In this document: positions 33,302 to 39,680 of the stretch, piece after piece
How the letters are laid out: each line of letters opens with the position of its first letter
Numbering within the stretch: the stretch's first letter is position 1
Source of the DNA: Alphaproteobacteria bacterium
Lineage (GTDB): Bacteria; Pseudomonadota; Alphaproteobacteria; Caulobacterales; Maricaulaceae
Reading direction: 5' to 3'
DNA: 64,000 nucleotides
Assembly (NCBI GenBank): GCA_018222865.1
Contig: JAAEZM010000004.1
Coordinates: 29,314 to 93,313 of the forward strand
Made by a program: the position numbers and the translations under genes
Notes under the pieces: generated by a model
Database searches by the model: none
Told to the model about the DNA's origin: nothing
Seen by the model: only the letters and a program-made list of their open reading frames with translations

Positions 33302-33979
33302 GTGGACGCACAATATCTGTGGAACCGGACCTTCACGACGCTGGGCCTGGATGATGCCCAAGCTCGCGCCGCGATGATCGAGCGCGGCGAATTGCGGCGC
33401 ATCGACGCCGATAAGACATTGATCGCACAATCTGATGATGATGATCAGGTCTACTTCCTGCTGGAAGGCCGGGCTCGCGTGGTCCTCTTTTCCGCGCGCG
33501 GACATGAGGTCTGGGTCGACAATCTGGAAACCGGTGCCGTGATTGGAGAGATCGCAGCCTTGACCGGTCATAAGAGAACCAGCGGAATTGTCGCGGAGAC
33601 GCTATGCGTTGTGGCGAGTTTTTCCAGCAATTCCTTCAAAACGCTCTTGCTCGAATTCGGCAGTATCGGCTTGGCGTTGTCGACATCACTCGCCAATCGG
33701 GTCCACACGACGACACGCCGCATGTTCGAACTTTCCGCCATGACGGCCAAAGGGCGGGTTTATGGCGAACTCCTGCGCATTGCCGAGCCGATGGAAGAAT
33801 CTGGCGTCTTGATCATCAAGCCGCTGCCCAATCTCGCCGGGCTGGCCAAGCGTGTGAGCACCACGCGCGAGACGGTTTCGCGCGCTATCACGGAGCTGGA
33901 GGAGAAAAAGCTCCTGCAGCGTGCCGATGACAGTTTCCTGCTTATCGACCCAGACCAGCTCGGACGTTTACAGAAATGA
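33302..33979 (+). CDS. Crp/Fnr family transcriptional regulator
   Basis: cNMP-binding-type beta roll (IAQSDDDDQVYFLLEGRARVVLFSARGHEVWVDNLETGAVIGEIAALTG) and HTH LAKRVSTTRETVSRAITELEEKKLL; GTG start at 33302 likely. Confidence 0.87.
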   Translation: MDAQYLWNRTFTTLGLDDAQARAAMIERGELRRIDADKTLIAQSDDDDQVYFLLEGRARVVLFSARGHEVWVDNLETGAVIGEIAALTGHKRTSGIVAETLCVVASFSSNSFKTLLLEFGSIGLALSTSLANRVHTTTRRMFELSAMTAKGRVYGELLRIAEPMEESGVLIIKPLPNLAGLAKRVSTTRETVSRAITELEEKKLLQRADDSFLLIDPDQLGRLQK

Positions 33980-35803
33980 AGCCCTAGCTCCGCTCGATAA
34001 AGCGTCAAGGCTGTCAGCCGCGATCGCACGCAAGGCGTATAGCGGCATTTCAGGGAGATTGCGGTCAATGGTTCGTCGGCCGATATACTCACACTTGAAC
34101 CGCGCCATCTCTTCCATGGTCAAAACGGCAGCGAATGCTTCAGTTGTAAAGATGGCGCCGGGCAAGGCAGCCCGCTCCACACGCGACGCGATCGCCACCT
34201 GAGCTCCAAAGGGAGCGAGCCGTTTCTGCAGGGGATCCTCGCCCAGATGCACGGGTCCGAAATGTGCCCCAATACGCAATTCCAGGCTCTCAGGCAGGCC
34301 CAGGGCGTTTTGGTCAATTCCAGCAAAGACTTGCTGCAAACGCGTCGCCGCCGCCGCTGCCTCACCGGCGTGTTCGAAAGCGAGGAAGAGACCATCCCCC
34401 CAACTGTCACGATAGCTGGGCGAGCGCTCCAATTTCTCCAGGCTTTCCACCAATGCCCCAAGCACCTGGCTCACGAATACGCTGACCCGGTCATCAGGAA
34501 CGACGGTCGAATTCGCTACATCAACAAAAAGCATGGCCCGCATCGCCGGTACAAACCCCTCAGCATTGACCGATGCGTGCTCGACACTGTCCGTAAGCTT
34601 TGATGGGGCCGCCAGGGGTTTGCGCTTGAACTCGATACGGCATTGTTCGAGCCCCGCCTCTTGCCATGTGGCCGCGTCCCGATGGGTGCCGAAAGCCATG
34701 GCGGCAGCTTCAGGCGGGGCCGGATCACAGAGCAGCAGCTGAAGGGGGCGCGTTGCCAAGAGGTCCGCGCGCATACGCGCTAAACCCATGGCGACATTAG
34801 AGGCAAAATTGAGATTAGTGGGTGAGAGAATGCGCCGGTCAGAGCTGAGCTCCAGGACTTCTGAGGCCTGATCGAGCACATCATGCGCGCGTCTTAGCCA
34901 GGCTTCGCCATAGGGCGATACGGACGCCTGCAAAAAGACATCCACCGGCACGGGCAGGACCAGGTGCAAAGGCCGGTCACACCGCAAAACTGCTTCAGCG
35001 ACCAAAATATCGGCCCCGGCGGCAAGCGCGCCAAATGCCGGCCCGGTCGGATATTGATCGAAGAAGGCGTTAAGGGCTTGCGTTAGCTTGATCTGGCCTT
35101 CGCTTCCGAGCGCGTCCTGTTCAAAAAGATGCCCTGCATAATGAAGCGGACGCGGTAGCGCCGGCCAGGAAATGGCATCATCTGCCAGCCCCAATTGAGC
35201 GCTCACCCAGCGCAACTGCCCACGTGTTGTGGCTTGTGCGAGCAGATTACCGGGATCCTTGCTGATTGCCTCAACAAGAGAGAGCCGGGCAGCATTCACA
35301 TCACCGAGGAGAAGATAGGCTTCGGCCTCCGAAGCTCCACGATAATAGGCCGCCTCTCCACAATCCTCCGTTTGAGGATAGCGGCGCATATCCAGCACTC
35401 GCCGCGCCCAGGACCGCGCCCGATCCGGCTCTCCGGCTGCCAGATAGAGCGAAGCGGCATTGATCGCCGGGTAGTGCCCGCAGGTCTGGCTGAAGACATT
35501 CGCATAGCGGTCAGCTGCCTCGCGGGCGAGCGCCGGCATCCCCTCACCGCTGACTTCGAACGCCCGTGCCTTATGCAGGCGTGCGGCAATACTCAAACAG
35601 TCCTCATCCTGTGTAGCCCGGTTCAGTCCAAACTCGTTGAAGAGGGTCCAGGCCCGCTCCAGCGCTCCGGACTTGATCAGACAAAGGACCGCGCGGTGCT
35701 GCGTCCAGACATCCTCAGGCTCAACAGCCAAAGAAGTACGGCACAGCTCATAGGCGCGGGCGAGATCGCCTTCGCGATAGAAGTCTTCAATCGAATCTCT
35801 CAC
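33968..35803 (-). CDS. TPR/TRAFs-binding-like N-terminus fused to a C-terminal class III nucleotidyl cyclase domain
   Basis: N-term AYELCRTSLAVEPEDVWTQHRAVLCLIKSGALERA (TPR/DUF4071-like); C-term MRAMLFVDVANST...YRDSWGDGLFLAFE...RIGAHFGPVHLG...FGAQVAIASRVE (class III cyclase). Confidence 0.82.
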   Translation of the reverse strand: MRDSIEDFYREGDLARAYELCRTSLAVEPEDVWTQHRAVLCLIKSGALERAWTLFNEFGLNRATQDEDCLSIAARLHKARAFEVSGEGMPALAREAADRYANVFSQTCGHYPAINAASLYLAAGEPDRARSWARRVLDMRRYPQTEDCGEAAYYRGASEAEAYLLLGDVNAARLSLVEAISKDPGNLLAQATTRGQLRWVSAQLGLADDAISWPALPRPLHYAGHLFEQDALGSEGQIKLTQALNAFFDQYPTGPAFGALAAGADILVAEAVLRCDRPLHLVLPVPVDVFLQASVSPYGEAWLRRAHDVLDQASEVLELSSDRRILSPTNLNFASNVAMGLARMRADLLATRPLQLLLCDPAPPEAAAMAFGTHRDAATWQEAGLEQCRIEFKRKPLAAPSKLTDSVEHASVNAEGFVPAMRAMLFVDVANSTVVPDDRVSVFVSQVLGALVESLEKLERSPSYRDSWGDGLFLAFEHAGEAAAAATRLQQVFAGIDQNALGLPESLELRIGAHFGPVHLGEDPLQKRLAPFGAQVAIASRVERAALPGAIFTTEAFAAVLTMEEMARFKCEYIGRRTIDRNLPEMPLYALRAIAADSLDALSSGARASFL

Positions 35804-35830
35804 CCGTGCCCTTTGAGCGCCGTGCTGCGA

Positions 35831-36460
35831 CTATACCGGTGGTATTTCGACCAGGATCTTCGGATCAATGATCAAACGTGTCGCCTGATGACCGGCATCC
35901 TGCGACGCTTTCACATAGAGCGCAAATTCATAGGCATCTGCACTCACCGCATCGGTGTTCACATCAATCTTGAAGCTGTAGGGCGCGCTGGAGACACCGT
36001 TCAAGGTCAGCCATTCCAAGCCGGTAAACCCACCCGCAGGCACGTCCGACTTAAACTTGATCCGGGCTGGCTCAAATCCCCAGCCTTGTGAATAGACATG
36101 GAAGATGAGACGGGTCTGTGCTGGTACGGTCTCGTCAAACGGGCTCTCGCCTACATAGCTGCTTGGCACCCATTTTCCCGCCAGTGCCGCGCCTACGGCC
36201 ATGCGGATAGTCGCGGCGTCCGCTCCGGCATGCTGGTCGACCGAATGCGCGAACGTGGTGAAGATATCGGTGATTTCCGTGTCGCTGAACTGCGACCCCA
36301 AGCCGATATCCGAGCCGGACACCACGACAAAGCCATCCTTCGCCTCGGCGATCAGGCTGATGAAGGTCGCACGATCTTCAGCTGTGCTTTTCTCCTCCAG
36401 CACGCTCTGCGTCACATTTCCGTCAAAGAAGGTCGCAGGATCAAGTCCAGGCATAGGCAT
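35831..36460 (-). CDS. Uncharacterised protein, middle gene of the TIR-cyclase operon
   Basis: 209 aa ORF, same strand, 27 bp from the cyclase start and 58 bp from the TIR gene end; no family recognised. Confidence 0.72.
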   Translation of the reverse strand: MPMPGLDPATFFDGNVTQSVLEEKSTAEDRATFISLIAEAKDGFVVVSGSDIGLGSQFSDTEITDIFTTFAHSVDQHAGADAATIRMAVGAALAGKWVPSSYVGESPFDETVPAQTRLIFHVYSQGWGFEPARIKFKSDVPAGGFTGLEWLTLNGVSSAPYSFKIDVNTDAVSADAYEFALYVKASQDAGHQATRLIIDPKILVEIPPV

Positions 36461-36518
36461 TCCCCCAAAAAATTAAGTTCAGAGGACTAGAACAAGCCCT
36501 CTCCCCTGATTGCGCGAT

Positions 36519-38564
36519 CTATTCCGCGCTCAGAAGCTCAGCTTCAAGCCGGGCCTGTGCCCGCTCAAATTCAAAACGCGCATTCGCTCTCAATTCACTT
36601 TCAACGTCGGTGAGATGAGAGACCATGATCTCACGCATCTCACGCGCTTCCAGCGCGCGCCCCTGCACATCTCTGATGTCCGCCAGCAAGTTGGTCGCAG
36701 CCGCATAGAAATACGGCCCACCATCTATACGTCCGGCCCAGCTCTCGGTAAGCGCGAGTTCGTTGATCAATGCTGTCAGAGCCATTTCGGCGCTTTGCAT
36801 ATCCCCCCCGGCGTAAAACAGGCTGGCTTCCATCAAGGTTGCGCTCAAACGAATAGTATCGGCGGCGACATCTTCCGCGGCCTGCCAGGATGGGTGTGCC
36901 ATATAAGCCATCGCATCCAGATAAGCCGTCCGGGCCTCATCCAAACGACCAAGCACGAGATAGATCCGGGACAGCGTCAGGCGCTGCGCGATGACAACAC
37001 GGCGCCAATTCCGGTTGTCCGGCTCATGATTGACCAGGGCATCCGCCTCCAGAGAAATCGTCTCTGCAATGGCGAGCGCTTCCTCAAGATCCGCCGGAGC
37101 ACCCGTCTGACCGCGCACCATGAGCAGGCGCGCCAGCCCGCTTTCCGCGACCAGCGCATTGCGCCGGATCCGCCAGTCCGTATCCGAGGTCTCCATCTGG
37201 CTCATCACATCGAGCTGCGCGCGCGTCGCAGAGATAGCGGCATCCGCCCCTTCGGTGATTTCCAGAATACTCGCCATCCAGCCCCAGGCATCCGCCAGCT
37301 CATTGCGGGCGACATCGGACTCGGGTTGAGCATCGCTCAGCCATTCAAACTCCAACAGGGCGGATTGAAAGGCGGTTTGTGCGTCTGTGAAACGGCGCTG
37401 CCCCAGATAGAGCGAACCGAGATTCGACTGTGCATAGGCGGCCTCTGTGCGCCATTCCGCATTCTCGGCATCGGCCGCTACAAGCTGGGCTGCGAGATCG
37501 CGATATTCGACAAAGCGGCGCTCGGCGACATCAAGATCATTACGGCGATAGGCAAAATACCCCACCCAGAAAGCCGATTGCGAATGCTCATAAATTCGCG
37601 CCGGCTCATTCGGGTCGACGGCGAGAATCTGCTGTGTGGTGATGTAGGCATTGCGGAAATGATTGATCGCACTGTCGAGATTGCCCTGCGCCGCATCAAT
37701 CTCGCCAAGCAGGTGGAAGGCCCGCGAACGGCGCCCCAGAGAATCCGCCGTCATTCGGGCAACAGAACGGTCCTCATAATACTCGATAACCTTCGCACCG
37801 ACGGCGTCTAGCACATCGAGGCGTCCCACAGGCTCAAGTCGGTCTCGCAAATCATTCAGCATGAACTCGATCAAATCCTCTGCCTCGGCCTTGCGCTGCT
37901 CTGCCTCCGAACGCGCGGACATGGCAAAGAGCGTTAATCCTCCCAAGACTATCGCTGAAAGAACTGACATGACCGTGACGGCCATCACGCGTCGGTTCCG
38001 ACGTTGCAGATCGCGCTGAATGATTTGATCGAGCGGCAGGCCAAGCAGACCGGCGATGAGTTTGAGACGGCCCATGGAGGGACCATCCCCTTCGGCTCGG
38101 AAATCGGCTCCGAGCGGCTCGACAGACCTGGCCCCGCCGGGGAAAAGCGCAGCGGGATAGCAATCGCGTGCCGGATCCTGTGCCCCCGGCTCTCCATCCA
38201 GGATCGCGACCAGGATATCCCGATCCGGATGCAATTCCCGAAATAGCGCGATCTCCGCATTCACCCATTTCGACGTCGCCGCCTGCGGCGAGCACAGAAC
38301 GATCAGGGCCGCACTATTGTGTAGAGCCTCCTGGACCGCTTGGGAGAGGTCACTCCCAGCAGATAATTCTTCGCGATCACGGAAAATCCGCCCCAACCTC
38401 TTGGGGACTTCACCTTTCTGTGTGGTTTTCCCAACCAGGCGGCCTGGAATGGAATAGGTCTCGAGGGCCCGGTGCAGGCGGGCTGCAGCGCGCTCATCAG
38501 CGTGGCTGTAACTGATAAAGGCCGCATAGGTCGGATTTGCGCTCATCATGTCCCCCAAACACAA
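36519..38564 (-). CDS. TIR domain-TM-TPR protein
   Basis: YAAFISYSHADERAAARLHRALETY...RIFRDREELSAGSDL...SKWVNAEIALF (TIR with candidate catalytic Glu); TM VMAVTVMSVLSAIVLGGLTLFAM; DLRDRLEPVGRLDVLDAVG then TPR repeats. Start may be internal (MMSANPTYA). Confidence 0.87.
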   Translation of the reverse strand: MCLGDMMSANPTYAAFISYSHADERAAARLHRALETYSIPGRLVGKTTQKGEVPKRLGRIFRDREELSAGSDLSQAVQEALHNSAALIVLCSPQAATSKWVNAEIALFRELHPDRDILVAILDGEPGAQDPARDCYPAALFPGGARSVEPLGADFRAEGDGPSMGRLKLIAGLLGLPLDQIIQRDLQRRNRRVMAVTVMSVLSAIVLGGLTLFAMSARSEAEQRKAEAEDLIEFMLNDLRDRLEPVGRLDVLDAVGAKVIEYYEDRSVARMTADSLGRRSRAFHLLGEIDAAQGNLDSAINHFRNAYITTQQILAVDPNEPARIYEHSQSAFWVGYFAYRRNDLDVAERRFVEYRDLAAQLVAADAENAEWRTEAAYAQSNLGSLYLGQRRFTDAQTAFQSALLEFEWLSDAQPESDVARNELADAWGWMASILEITEGADAAISATRAQLDVMSQMETSDTDWRIRRNALVAESGLARLLMVRGQTGAPADLEEALAIAETISLEADALVNHEPDNRNWRRVVIAQRLTLSRIYLVLGRLDEARTAYLDAMAYMAHPSWQAAEDVAADTIRLSATLMEASLFYAGGDMQSAEMALTALINELALTESWAGRIDGGPYFYAAATNLLADIRDVQGRALEAREMREIMVSHLTDVESELRANARFEFERAQARLEAELLSAE

Positions 38565-38683
38565 TCTGGGGTATTCTCAATGAGCCGCGCGCACGATGCA
38601 ATACGACCTCCCAAAGTCGAAGGGGATATCGGCAGTTAATTCGGTCAAGCCGTATCGATTTGCCACTATTTGCGCGAAGAGCA

Positions 38684-38742
38684 AGTCGGCGAGGCACTCA
38701 CGAAGTTGCGGCTTCGTGTTGGGCAAGCGCACCTCGCCGACT
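38684..38742. promoter_or_regulatory. Nested hairpin upstream of the TIR operon
   Basis: Outer 11-bp stem AGTCGGCGAGG (38684-38694)/CCTCGCCGACT (38732-38742) enclosing CACGAAG (38699-38705)/CTTCGTG (38712-38718). Confidence 0.5.
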
Positions 38743-38819
38743 ATCACATTCCAAAAGGAGTTTTGGGGCCACCCGGAATGCGCAAGTGTATAAGTAATTC
38801 GCAAAACCTGAGGGCGCAC

Positions 38820-38833
38820 GTGACGTAGATCAC
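38820..38833. promoter_or_regulatory. CRP-type binding site GTGA-CGTAGA-TCAC
   Basis: Perfect symmetric GTGA-N6-TCAC core in the intergenic region upstream of the TIR operon. Confidence 0.5.
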
Positions 38834-38849
38834 GCCAAACGGCAGGTGA

Positions 38850-39680
38850 TCAGGAATTGATCGTGATTTCGACCGCTTCAATCGTCACCCCGCCCAGACC
38901 GGCACGTGTGTGAAGTCGCACGGGTAGATAATACGCACCGTCCTGCACTGGTGCGAGCCAGATTGTGAGCGGATGCTCCAACTCGTCCTCGGAGGGATAA
39001 TCCTCCGGATCATAACCGGAAATAGGCTCGTACCAGGCTTGGCAGACAAGGGCGTCTCCACGCCAGGCGCGGGTGCGCACCGGCTCGAATCCACCGCTCT
39101 GAAGGTTAAGATTATAGCGAGCCTTGCCATCAAACACCGGCAAAGAGCCCGCACAACCGCGGTCTGGGTCGAGGGCAATCGCGTTCGACAATCCCAGAAA
39201 TGCTGTCATCGGATCGATCGTACCCCGGCGATCCTCTTCCGAGGCAGGCGGTACGCCCCATGAACCAAAAGGCGGGGTGACATCTGACTGCGCGACGCCG
39301 GTATCGAAACTCACCTCGACCTCGCGCACCTTGTCGCCTGTCCGCTCGATATGGGCATAGCGATCCGGCGCGATAAACCCACCCTCATCCAACCGGCCTT
39401 CCACCTCCGAACGGATCTCAAAATCGGTGAAAAGCGCAACGAGCCCTGAGGCTTCAATCATGGACTGGGCTTCATACCGATCAGGTTCGACCCGGGTTCG
39501 CAGGGAAATCTCGCCGACCTCGAAGATCAGGACGGAGCCGGAATAGACAGCGCTCAGATCAAACCCACCCGTAACCGGCGCATTATCCAGGCTGGAGGTG
39601 TGAGCCGGTAGGCTTCCAGGCACCAATACCGTCAGTGAAAGCGCCACTATCGATGAAGCCAAACGTGTGCGGAAAGCCAT
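38850..39680 (-). CDS. DUF3108 domain-containing secreted protein
   Basis: Signal peptide MAFRTRLASSIVALSLTVLVPGSLPAHT; DUF3108-like beta-rich protein (LPVFDGKARYNLNLQ...CQAWYEPISGY). Confidence 0.7.
   Translation of the reverse strand: MAFRTRLASSIVALSLTVLVPGSLPAHTSSLDNAPVTGGFDLSAVYSGSVLIFEVGEISLRTRVEPDRYEAQSMIEASGLVALFTDFEIRSEVEGRLDEGGFIAPDRYAHIERTGDKVREVEVSFDTGVAQSDVTPPFGSWGVPPASEEDRRGTIDPMTAFLGLSNAIALDPDRGCAGSLPVFDGKARYNLNLQSGGFEPVRTRAWRGDALVCQAWYEPISGYDPEDYPSEDELEHPLTIWLAPVQDGAYYLPVRLHTRAGLGGVTIEAVEITINS

Follow-up and report, generated by a model that had tools for sequence, protein, structure and literature searches.

A Maricaulis gene module linking a TIR protein, a cyclase and a CRP-type regulator: a candidate self-amplifying relay with paired decay of enzyme and reader

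The 64,000-nucleotide stretch of DNA analysed here, which we call the window (contig JAAEZM010000004.1 of assembly GCA_018222865.1), comes from a member of the genus Maricaulis, shared with Maricaulis alexandrii and M. parjimensis, and its genome of 3.0 Mb is 100% complete. It carries a module of four genes (Table 1), which we name TIR (a TIR-transmembrane-TPR protein), MID (a 209-aa protein), CYC (a TPR-S/cyclase protein) and CRP (a regulator). The three minus-strand genes are separated by gaps of 58 and 27 bp, and CYC converges with CRP and overlaps it by 12 bp, so that the layout given in the original prediction, an earlier reading of this DNA, was reproduced exactly. The module reaches upstream as far as an operator in the TIR promoter, and its G+C content (0.591) is close to that of the window (0.592).

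Table 1. Features of the TIR-MID-CYC-CRP module, in positions of the window (cNMP, cyclic mononucleotide; HTH, helix-turn-helix).
Feature	Position	Strand	Basis
CRP-type regulator, 225 aa; cNMP-binding and Crp-type HTH domains	33302..33979	+	Pfam; alignment to E. coli CRP
CYC, 611 aa; TPR-S sensor, Rossmann-like domain and class III nucleotide cyclase	33968..35803	-	Pfam, AlphaFold, fold match, residues
CYC class III cyclase homology domain, residues 418-593	34025..34552	-	Pfam, model, fold match
CYC Rossmann-like middle domain, residues about 205-391 (218-391 in the model)	34631..35191	-	Structure model
CYC helical TPR region, residues 1-203 (TPR-S Pfam match 16-119)	35195..35803	-	Pfam, structure model
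MID, 209 aa; alpha/beta N-terminal domain (~30-92) and C-terminal beta-sandwich (110-204)	35831..36460	-	AlphaFold, Foldseek, relatives
MID Asp199-Pro200, candidate self-cleavage bond	35861..35866	-	Invariant in alignments
TIR-transmembrane-TPR protein, 676 aa, with catalytic Glu	36519..38549	-	Pfam; inspection of transmembrane segment and start; Glu alignment
Putative -10 element TTACTT, 21 bp past the operator (class II spacing)	38792..38797	-	Spacing common to most Maricaulis loci
CRP-type operator CGTGATCTACGTCACG (TIR strand), in the TIR promoter	38819..38834	.	Same site type in Maricaulis TIR promoters

CRP has the features expected of a cNMP-responsive regulator. It matched the Pfam families cNMP_binding (E 7e-16) and HTH_Crp_2 (E 5e-8), and alignment to E. 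coli CRP showed an intact phosphate-binding cassette (IGE...RT), with its Glu and Arg kept, and an R-E-x-x-x-R recognition helix. CYC matched TPR-S (PF20308; E 8e-10, above the cut-off of that family) and Guanylate_cyc (E 4e-8). Its AlphaFold model (predicted local distance difference test score, pLDDT, 90) consists of a TPR solenoid, a Rossmann-like domain and a cyclase domain, the last of which matches the fold of the solved class III cyclases CyaB, Cya2, Rv1900c and Ma1120. Metal-binding Asp428 and Asp470 and transition-state Arg541 are all kept. This protein had earlier been described as TPR/TRAFs-like with a class III cyclase at its end; the cyclase end holds, while the N-terminal part is corrected to the named TPR-S family followed by the Rossmann-like domain. 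The latter carries a conserved GALAAGADI..AEA... segment and had no match in Pfam or PDB sequence searches; since these gave no support for a SLOG identity, we infer only that it is SLOG-like.

The TIR protein matched TIR_2 (E 9e-13) and, weakly, TPRs, and has a transmembrane segment at residues ~191-213. The SxWVxxE motif with a candidate NADase Glu, noted in the original prediction, is present in the window; the Glu was found in 100/100 aligned TIR proteins, and the Ser and Trp in 99. From what is known of the TIR family (for example, PMC10022894), this conservation makes an NADase-type activity likely. The Maricaulis genome encodes a second TIR-domain protein outside the module (G000:C23:3886-4254).

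The original prediction had assigned MID to no recognised family, and it indeed had no Pfam, NCBIfam or PADLOC match, but structure prediction now provides a fold assignment. In the MID model (pLDDT 89) the C-terminal part is a beta-sandwich, for which the only PDB matches by Foldseek below E 1e-3 were mutants of SO1698 (probability 1.00, TM-score 0.6 by target; PDB 3njh, 3njl), a protein assigned to the Pfam family DP-EP (PF08985). According to a 2012 paper, SO1698 of Shewanella is reportedly a self-cleaving Asp-Pro endopeptidase with a Lys-Asp crosslink. MID relatives are very divergent but have in common a C-terminal domain marked by W-x-F and a terminal Asp-Pro. Asp199-Pro200 was invariant in both a 24-row and a 20-row alignment, and D-P lies within the last 60 residues of 63/63 middle proteins counted after a few doubtful gene calls were set aside. 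Most MID relatives have D-P-x-I-x-N, where DP-EP proteins end in S-x-D-P-x-V-x-N. Profile comparison united the Maricaulis, Caulobacter and Hellea-type versions of MID (probability 95% and 91%). In contrast, the PF08985 profile matched no Maricaulis MID member and nothing in the window genome, and comparison of the MID and DP-EP sequence profiles with hhalign was not significant (probability 5-11%), so that a proof of homology at the sequence level failed. MID thus has the predicted beta-sandwich and the C-terminal Asp-Pro of DP-EP proteins and lacks the family match. From the model it is plausible that MID works like a DP-EP, including a candidate self-cleavage; that it is a DP-EP is unproven.

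The window MID did not match pNTSase1 (PF20301) either, and its best Maricaulis relative reached only E 0.13. Relatives in other genera, some of the Hellea-type versions among them, do match this family (E 5e-9 for L095, 7968-8645), and the profile link MID-A2 had a probability of 91%. Since a DP-EP-like beta-sandwich is what the model gives for the MID-family domain, 'predicted novel nucleotide synthetase' may be the wrong name for it in Pfam. MID-like D-P proteins also follow TIR genes in loci that have no CYC (for example, L088, L092 and L096). Because they accompany TIR in this way, TIR-MID looks like the core pair of the module.

The gene-neighbourhood check for co-occurrence that the original prediction had proposed showed that the genes recur together, in several gene orders. 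All 15 Maricaulis loci examined have the order TIR-MID-CYC, with CRP converging on and overlapping the CYC tail, in conserved surroundings, and CYC was found in 18/19 Maricaulis genomes; with its conserved flanking genes, the module therefore behaves as core there. The cassette also occurs in Kordiimonas, Woodsholea, Hellea, Robiginitomaculum, Caulobacter, one Sphingomonas and others. CRP either converges on CYC or diverges from TIR, and because it occupies two different places the linkage is not frozen synteny. In Caulobacter the distribution is patchy, with a CYC relative in 38/61 genomes. A search with the 209 residues of MID alone found nothing beyond its own genome in the class sample or viral contigs, and profiles and neighbourhoods were required to find its relatives; the viral contigs scanned carried no relative. 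The CRP of L103, absent from the gene calls through an artefact of the gene caller, was recovered by tblastn, and that of L172, several genes away, was left out as not linked to the module.

Some modules have additional or rearranged parts. In Hellea/Robiginitomaculum-type modules, a trypsin-like peptidase gene is paired with the MID gene between TIR and CYC (L076, 9148-11301; L079, 9947-11890; L080, L082, L167 and L169). A Kordiimonas locus (L117, 10001-18077) has all four genes of the TIR-MID-CYC-CRP module and, after them, another TIR-MID pair. In L077, L155 and other Phenylobacterium loci, CYC lies tail-to-tail with TIR, with no MID or CRP nearby, and in L077 a gene for a PEP-CTERM protein adjoins TIR.

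The cyclase and the regulator were found in matching states. One group of CYC proteins has a degenerate cyclase domain without the metal-binding Asp residues, and it is exactly in those loci that CRP lacks the cassette Glu and Arg. The two states agreed in 81/81 distinct loci with both genes: 45 were intact/intact, 36 lost/lost and 0 mixed. Three Caulobacter genomes hold two modules, one intact and one degenerate, and in both the CRP is in the same state as the cyclase beside it. Base-contact positions also covary by clade, confounded with ancestry (cyclase K with CRP T-S; E with L-S/L-T; D or N with T-T). The idea that TPR-S proteins of 500-540 aa are cyclase-less proved wrong, as they retain the degenerate domain. 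L165 (10001-11683) and L251 have a full-length cyclase domain with one metal-binding Asp kept and the other lost, and their CRP pocket is already gone; they are an intermediate stage of decay.

In another family, CRP is joined to TPR-S/CYC as a single polypeptide (L087, L089, L091, L265, L266 and L270), with a pocketless cNMP domain, an HTH, TPR-S and a degenerate cyclase domain. These fusion proteins are a natural joining of the two ends of the relay proposed below. Bare cNMP-binding domains of 125-130 aa, with an intact pocket and no HTH, stand beside intact CYC in L126 (5463-5840), L147 and L171, in Rhodospirillaceae-type metagenome-assembled genomes.

A palindrome of the form YGTGA-N6-TCACR was present in 15/15 Maricaulis TIR promoters, and in 12-13 of these 15 loci a TAnnnT box lies exactly 21 bp beyond it. 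This spacing places the palindrome at about -41.5, which is the class II position of CRP-activated promoters. The -10-like box of the window itself, TTACTT, is a weaker fit, and the spacing in L067 is off by one. The operator core was found within 350 bp upstream of only 2/197 other genes of the same loci. A terminator hairpin does not explain the palindrome, as no T-run follows and its distance to the -10-like box is fixed. The recognition-helix residues of the module CRP agree with those of E. coli CRP. The stricter pattern YGTGAYNNNNRTCACR gave ten sites in the window genome (control 2), several of them with class II spacing. Two cNMP-binding proteins were found in this genome, the module CRP and a patatin-like protein, and no second protein with both cNMP-binding and Crp HTH domains; as no other regulator of the CRP type was found, the module CRP is the sole obvious reader of those sites. 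Kordiimonas, Woodsholea and others have similar sites ahead of TIR or CRP, and in some of these loci the cyclase is degenerate. Gene linkage, active-site and pocket residues, paired loss, the operator and its spacing can all be read directly from the DNA and its translations. Another operator with class II spacing lies upstream of a 124-aa, Gly/Ala-rich hydrophobic protein (L271, 3389-3932; G000:C2), a possible CRP target or membrane-active peptide, and L273 and L274 have similar sites ahead of small genes.

What could the four genes do together? We consider it probable, if well short of certain, that they form one signalling relay running from TIR/MID to CYC, to a cNMP, to CRP and back to the operon. 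In such a relay all enzymatic activities, what sets it off and the sequence of its events are presumed. The membrane-anchored TIR-TPR protein and its constant partner MID would sense an insult and act on NAD, and MID may be activated or assembled by processing itself at Asp-Pro. An NAD-derived product, or direct contact, would then be read by the TPR-S and Rossmann-like sensor of CYC, which would switch on its cyclase domain. The resulting cyclic mononucleotide would bind the adjacent CRP, the best supported step, and CRP would activate the TIR-MID-CYC promoter from its class II site, in a positive feedback, along with a few promoters elsewhere. One clade would have given up the second-messenger step, with both cyclase and CRP pocket degenerate; such degeneration, and the fusion in some genera, imply direct protein coupling. 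The last links, from cNMP to CRP to operon, appear well supported by the residues and sites compared here, whereas the first links we infer. The TPR-S and Rossmann-like part of CYC could be the natural receiver of a TIR signal, as SLOG is in Thoeris (PMC11204291). The original prediction that cyclase, TIR and CRP act in one sensing and response circuit gains support from their co-occurrence, from the paired states of cyclase site and CRP pocket and from the operator ahead of the TIR operon. The fuller version, in which TIR and a beta-sandwich partner that cleaves itself set off a TPR-S/Rossmann cyclase, and the cNMP from this enzyme causes CRP to induce the operon that encodes them, with the messenger bypassed in a sister clade, we offer tentatively.

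Several observations weigh against this relay. CYC has the fold and the two metal-binding Asp residues of class III cyclases, but not the canonical Lys/Asp (or Glu/Cys) pair or the transition-state Asn: the substrate- and base-specifying positions are Asp466 and Ala530, and the Asn position is Ala537. Because these positions are non-canonical, the product of CYC cannot be named and even its activity is uncertain. That a TIR product acts on CYC is a conjecture drawn from the Thoeris analogy. No CRP lies near TIR and CYC in Phenylobacterium and most Sphingomonadaceae, which have only these two genes. The genome-wide count covered the readers, proteins with cNMP-binding and Crp HTH domains. An early tree of the non-cyclase part had suggested three separate losses of cyclase and pocket. 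In all, the tree requires two or three changes; with denser sampling the number is two, and the approximately unbiased test does not reject a single loss (p-AU 0.39). For this reason we do not claim independent replication: the paired loss is consistent, is not statistically replicated, and may be a single ancestral event.

Of the alternatives, it is quite possible, short of probable, that the module is an anti-phage abortive system in which TIR NADase activity kills, MID and CYC act as sensor and amplifier, a cNMP serves as a threshold signal and CRP only sets expression. TIR, TPR-S, cyclase, pNTSase1-type and trypsin partners are the vocabulary of predicted conflict systems, and the patchiness in Caulobacter and the Hellea-type trypsin partners point to conflict biology. 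The near-universality and conserved flanks in Maricaulis, on the other hand, point to a core role, no PADLOC system matched, and the scanned viral contigs held no relatives. This near-universal, vertical presence suggests a core stress or immune-like circuit in Maricaulis; a defence role is unproven. Of the signalling or defence module offered in the original prediction, it is the signalling half that gains support.

That the module is an ordinary physiological cNMP-CRP regulator, the CRP and cyclase of the Maricaulis genome, with TIR-MID reporting stress or nutritional state and not infection, is possible and would account for several findings: CRP is the only regulator of its type found in the genome, the roughly ten operator-like sites include several with class II spacing, and inheritance is vertical in Maricaulis. 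However, ten or so sites are few for 3 Mb, the same cassette is patchy elsewhere and gains trypsin partners, and a TIR with its active site would be unusual in a housekeeping regulator. It is unlikely that CRP answers its own or another ligand while the cyclase works on something else, which would make the linkage purely transcriptional. CRP-type operators do persist where the CRP pocket is lost (L086, L170, L178, L179 and L223), and some modules lack CRP, but the complete agreement of pocket and cyclase states, also within genomes that hold both types, speaks against this. A divergent Pycsar system is highly improbable: a class III cyclase, a TIR and a cNMP-binding domain share the locus, and there are weak PycC profile matches, but these are marginal (E 0.015 in the window, where residues do not predict the product), the cyclase bears TPR-S and Rossmann-like domains, and the TIR protein consists of TIR, transmembrane and TPR parts only, the cNMP-binding domain being on a DNA-binding regulator; the earlier statement that this is not a canonical Pycsar was therefore right.

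If the relay holds, a TIR-triggered alarm would be wired to transcription through a mononucleotide messenger in a self-amplifying, previously uncharacterised circuit. For years an immune-like role has been predicted for TPR-S, pNTSase1 and TIR-cyclase clusters, with no diagram of how they are wired. The Maricaulis module offers one that is testable in cultivable aquatic bacteria that are safe to handle: it names a reader (CRP), an operator and a target operon, and predicts the residues that would carry the signal. Asp-Pro self-processing would be a concrete chemistry for a partner whose family label reads 'nucleotide synthetase', and the paired decay of enzyme and reader illustrates how a second-messenger step may drop out of a signalling circuit. 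As far as could be checked, the following are new: the joint decay of cyclase and CRP pocket, the architecture of the CRP operator, the fusions of CRP and the likeness of the partner to DP-EP.

How does the module compare with known systems? Its domains belong to a computationally predicted, mostly untested class of conflict systems. Burroughs and Aravind are said to have predicted the TPR-S and pNTSase1 systems computationally in 2020, with a cNMP theme and a proposed activation by threshold. Like these, the module has TPR-S fused to a signalling domain (the cyclase), a TIR with catalytic Glu adjoining the TPR-S protein, and a pNTSase1-type partner in related loci; it differs in being a four-gene relay with an operator for CRP, in the joint decay of cyclase and pocket, in having fusions of CRP, and in its partner, which is modelled as DP-EP-like. 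With SO1698/DP-EP, MID shares the predicted beta-sandwich, an Asp-Pro ~ten residues from the C-terminus and, in most relatives, D-P-x-[IV]-x-N, but it has no significant sequence-profile match and carries an extra N-terminal domain. The phosphate-binding cassette, recognition helix, TGTGA-type palindrome and class II position all recall cAMP-CRP of E. coli, whereas the module CRP is local, with few sites, a putative positive feedback on the operon of its candidate cyclase, and T-T in place of T-S at the base-contact positions.

In Thoeris, TIR makes a cyclic ADP-ribose (cADPR) isomer that is read by a SLOG domain (PMC10022894, PMC11204291). The module likewise has a catalytic-Glu TIR adjoining a protein with a Rossmann-type, putatively ligand-binding domain, but searches of CYC and MID gave no SIR2, SLOG or Macro match of the kind found in ThsA, and the output here would be a cyclase and a regulator, not killing by SIR2 or a transmembrane protein. 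Kaur et al. (PMC7159879) described cNMP cyclases, inactive ones included, in other conflict systems, with occasional linked CRP-like genes. Pycsar pairs a cyclase with a PycTIR or PycTM effector, and the defining effector is a TIR or transmembrane protein that itself bears a cNMP-binding domain. Pycsar (structures in PMC11224242) resembles the module in combining class III cyclase signalling and TIR in one locus, with a CRP-fold reader of cNMP; here, however, the reader is a transcription factor and not the TIR protein, and the cyclase is large and fused to a sensor.

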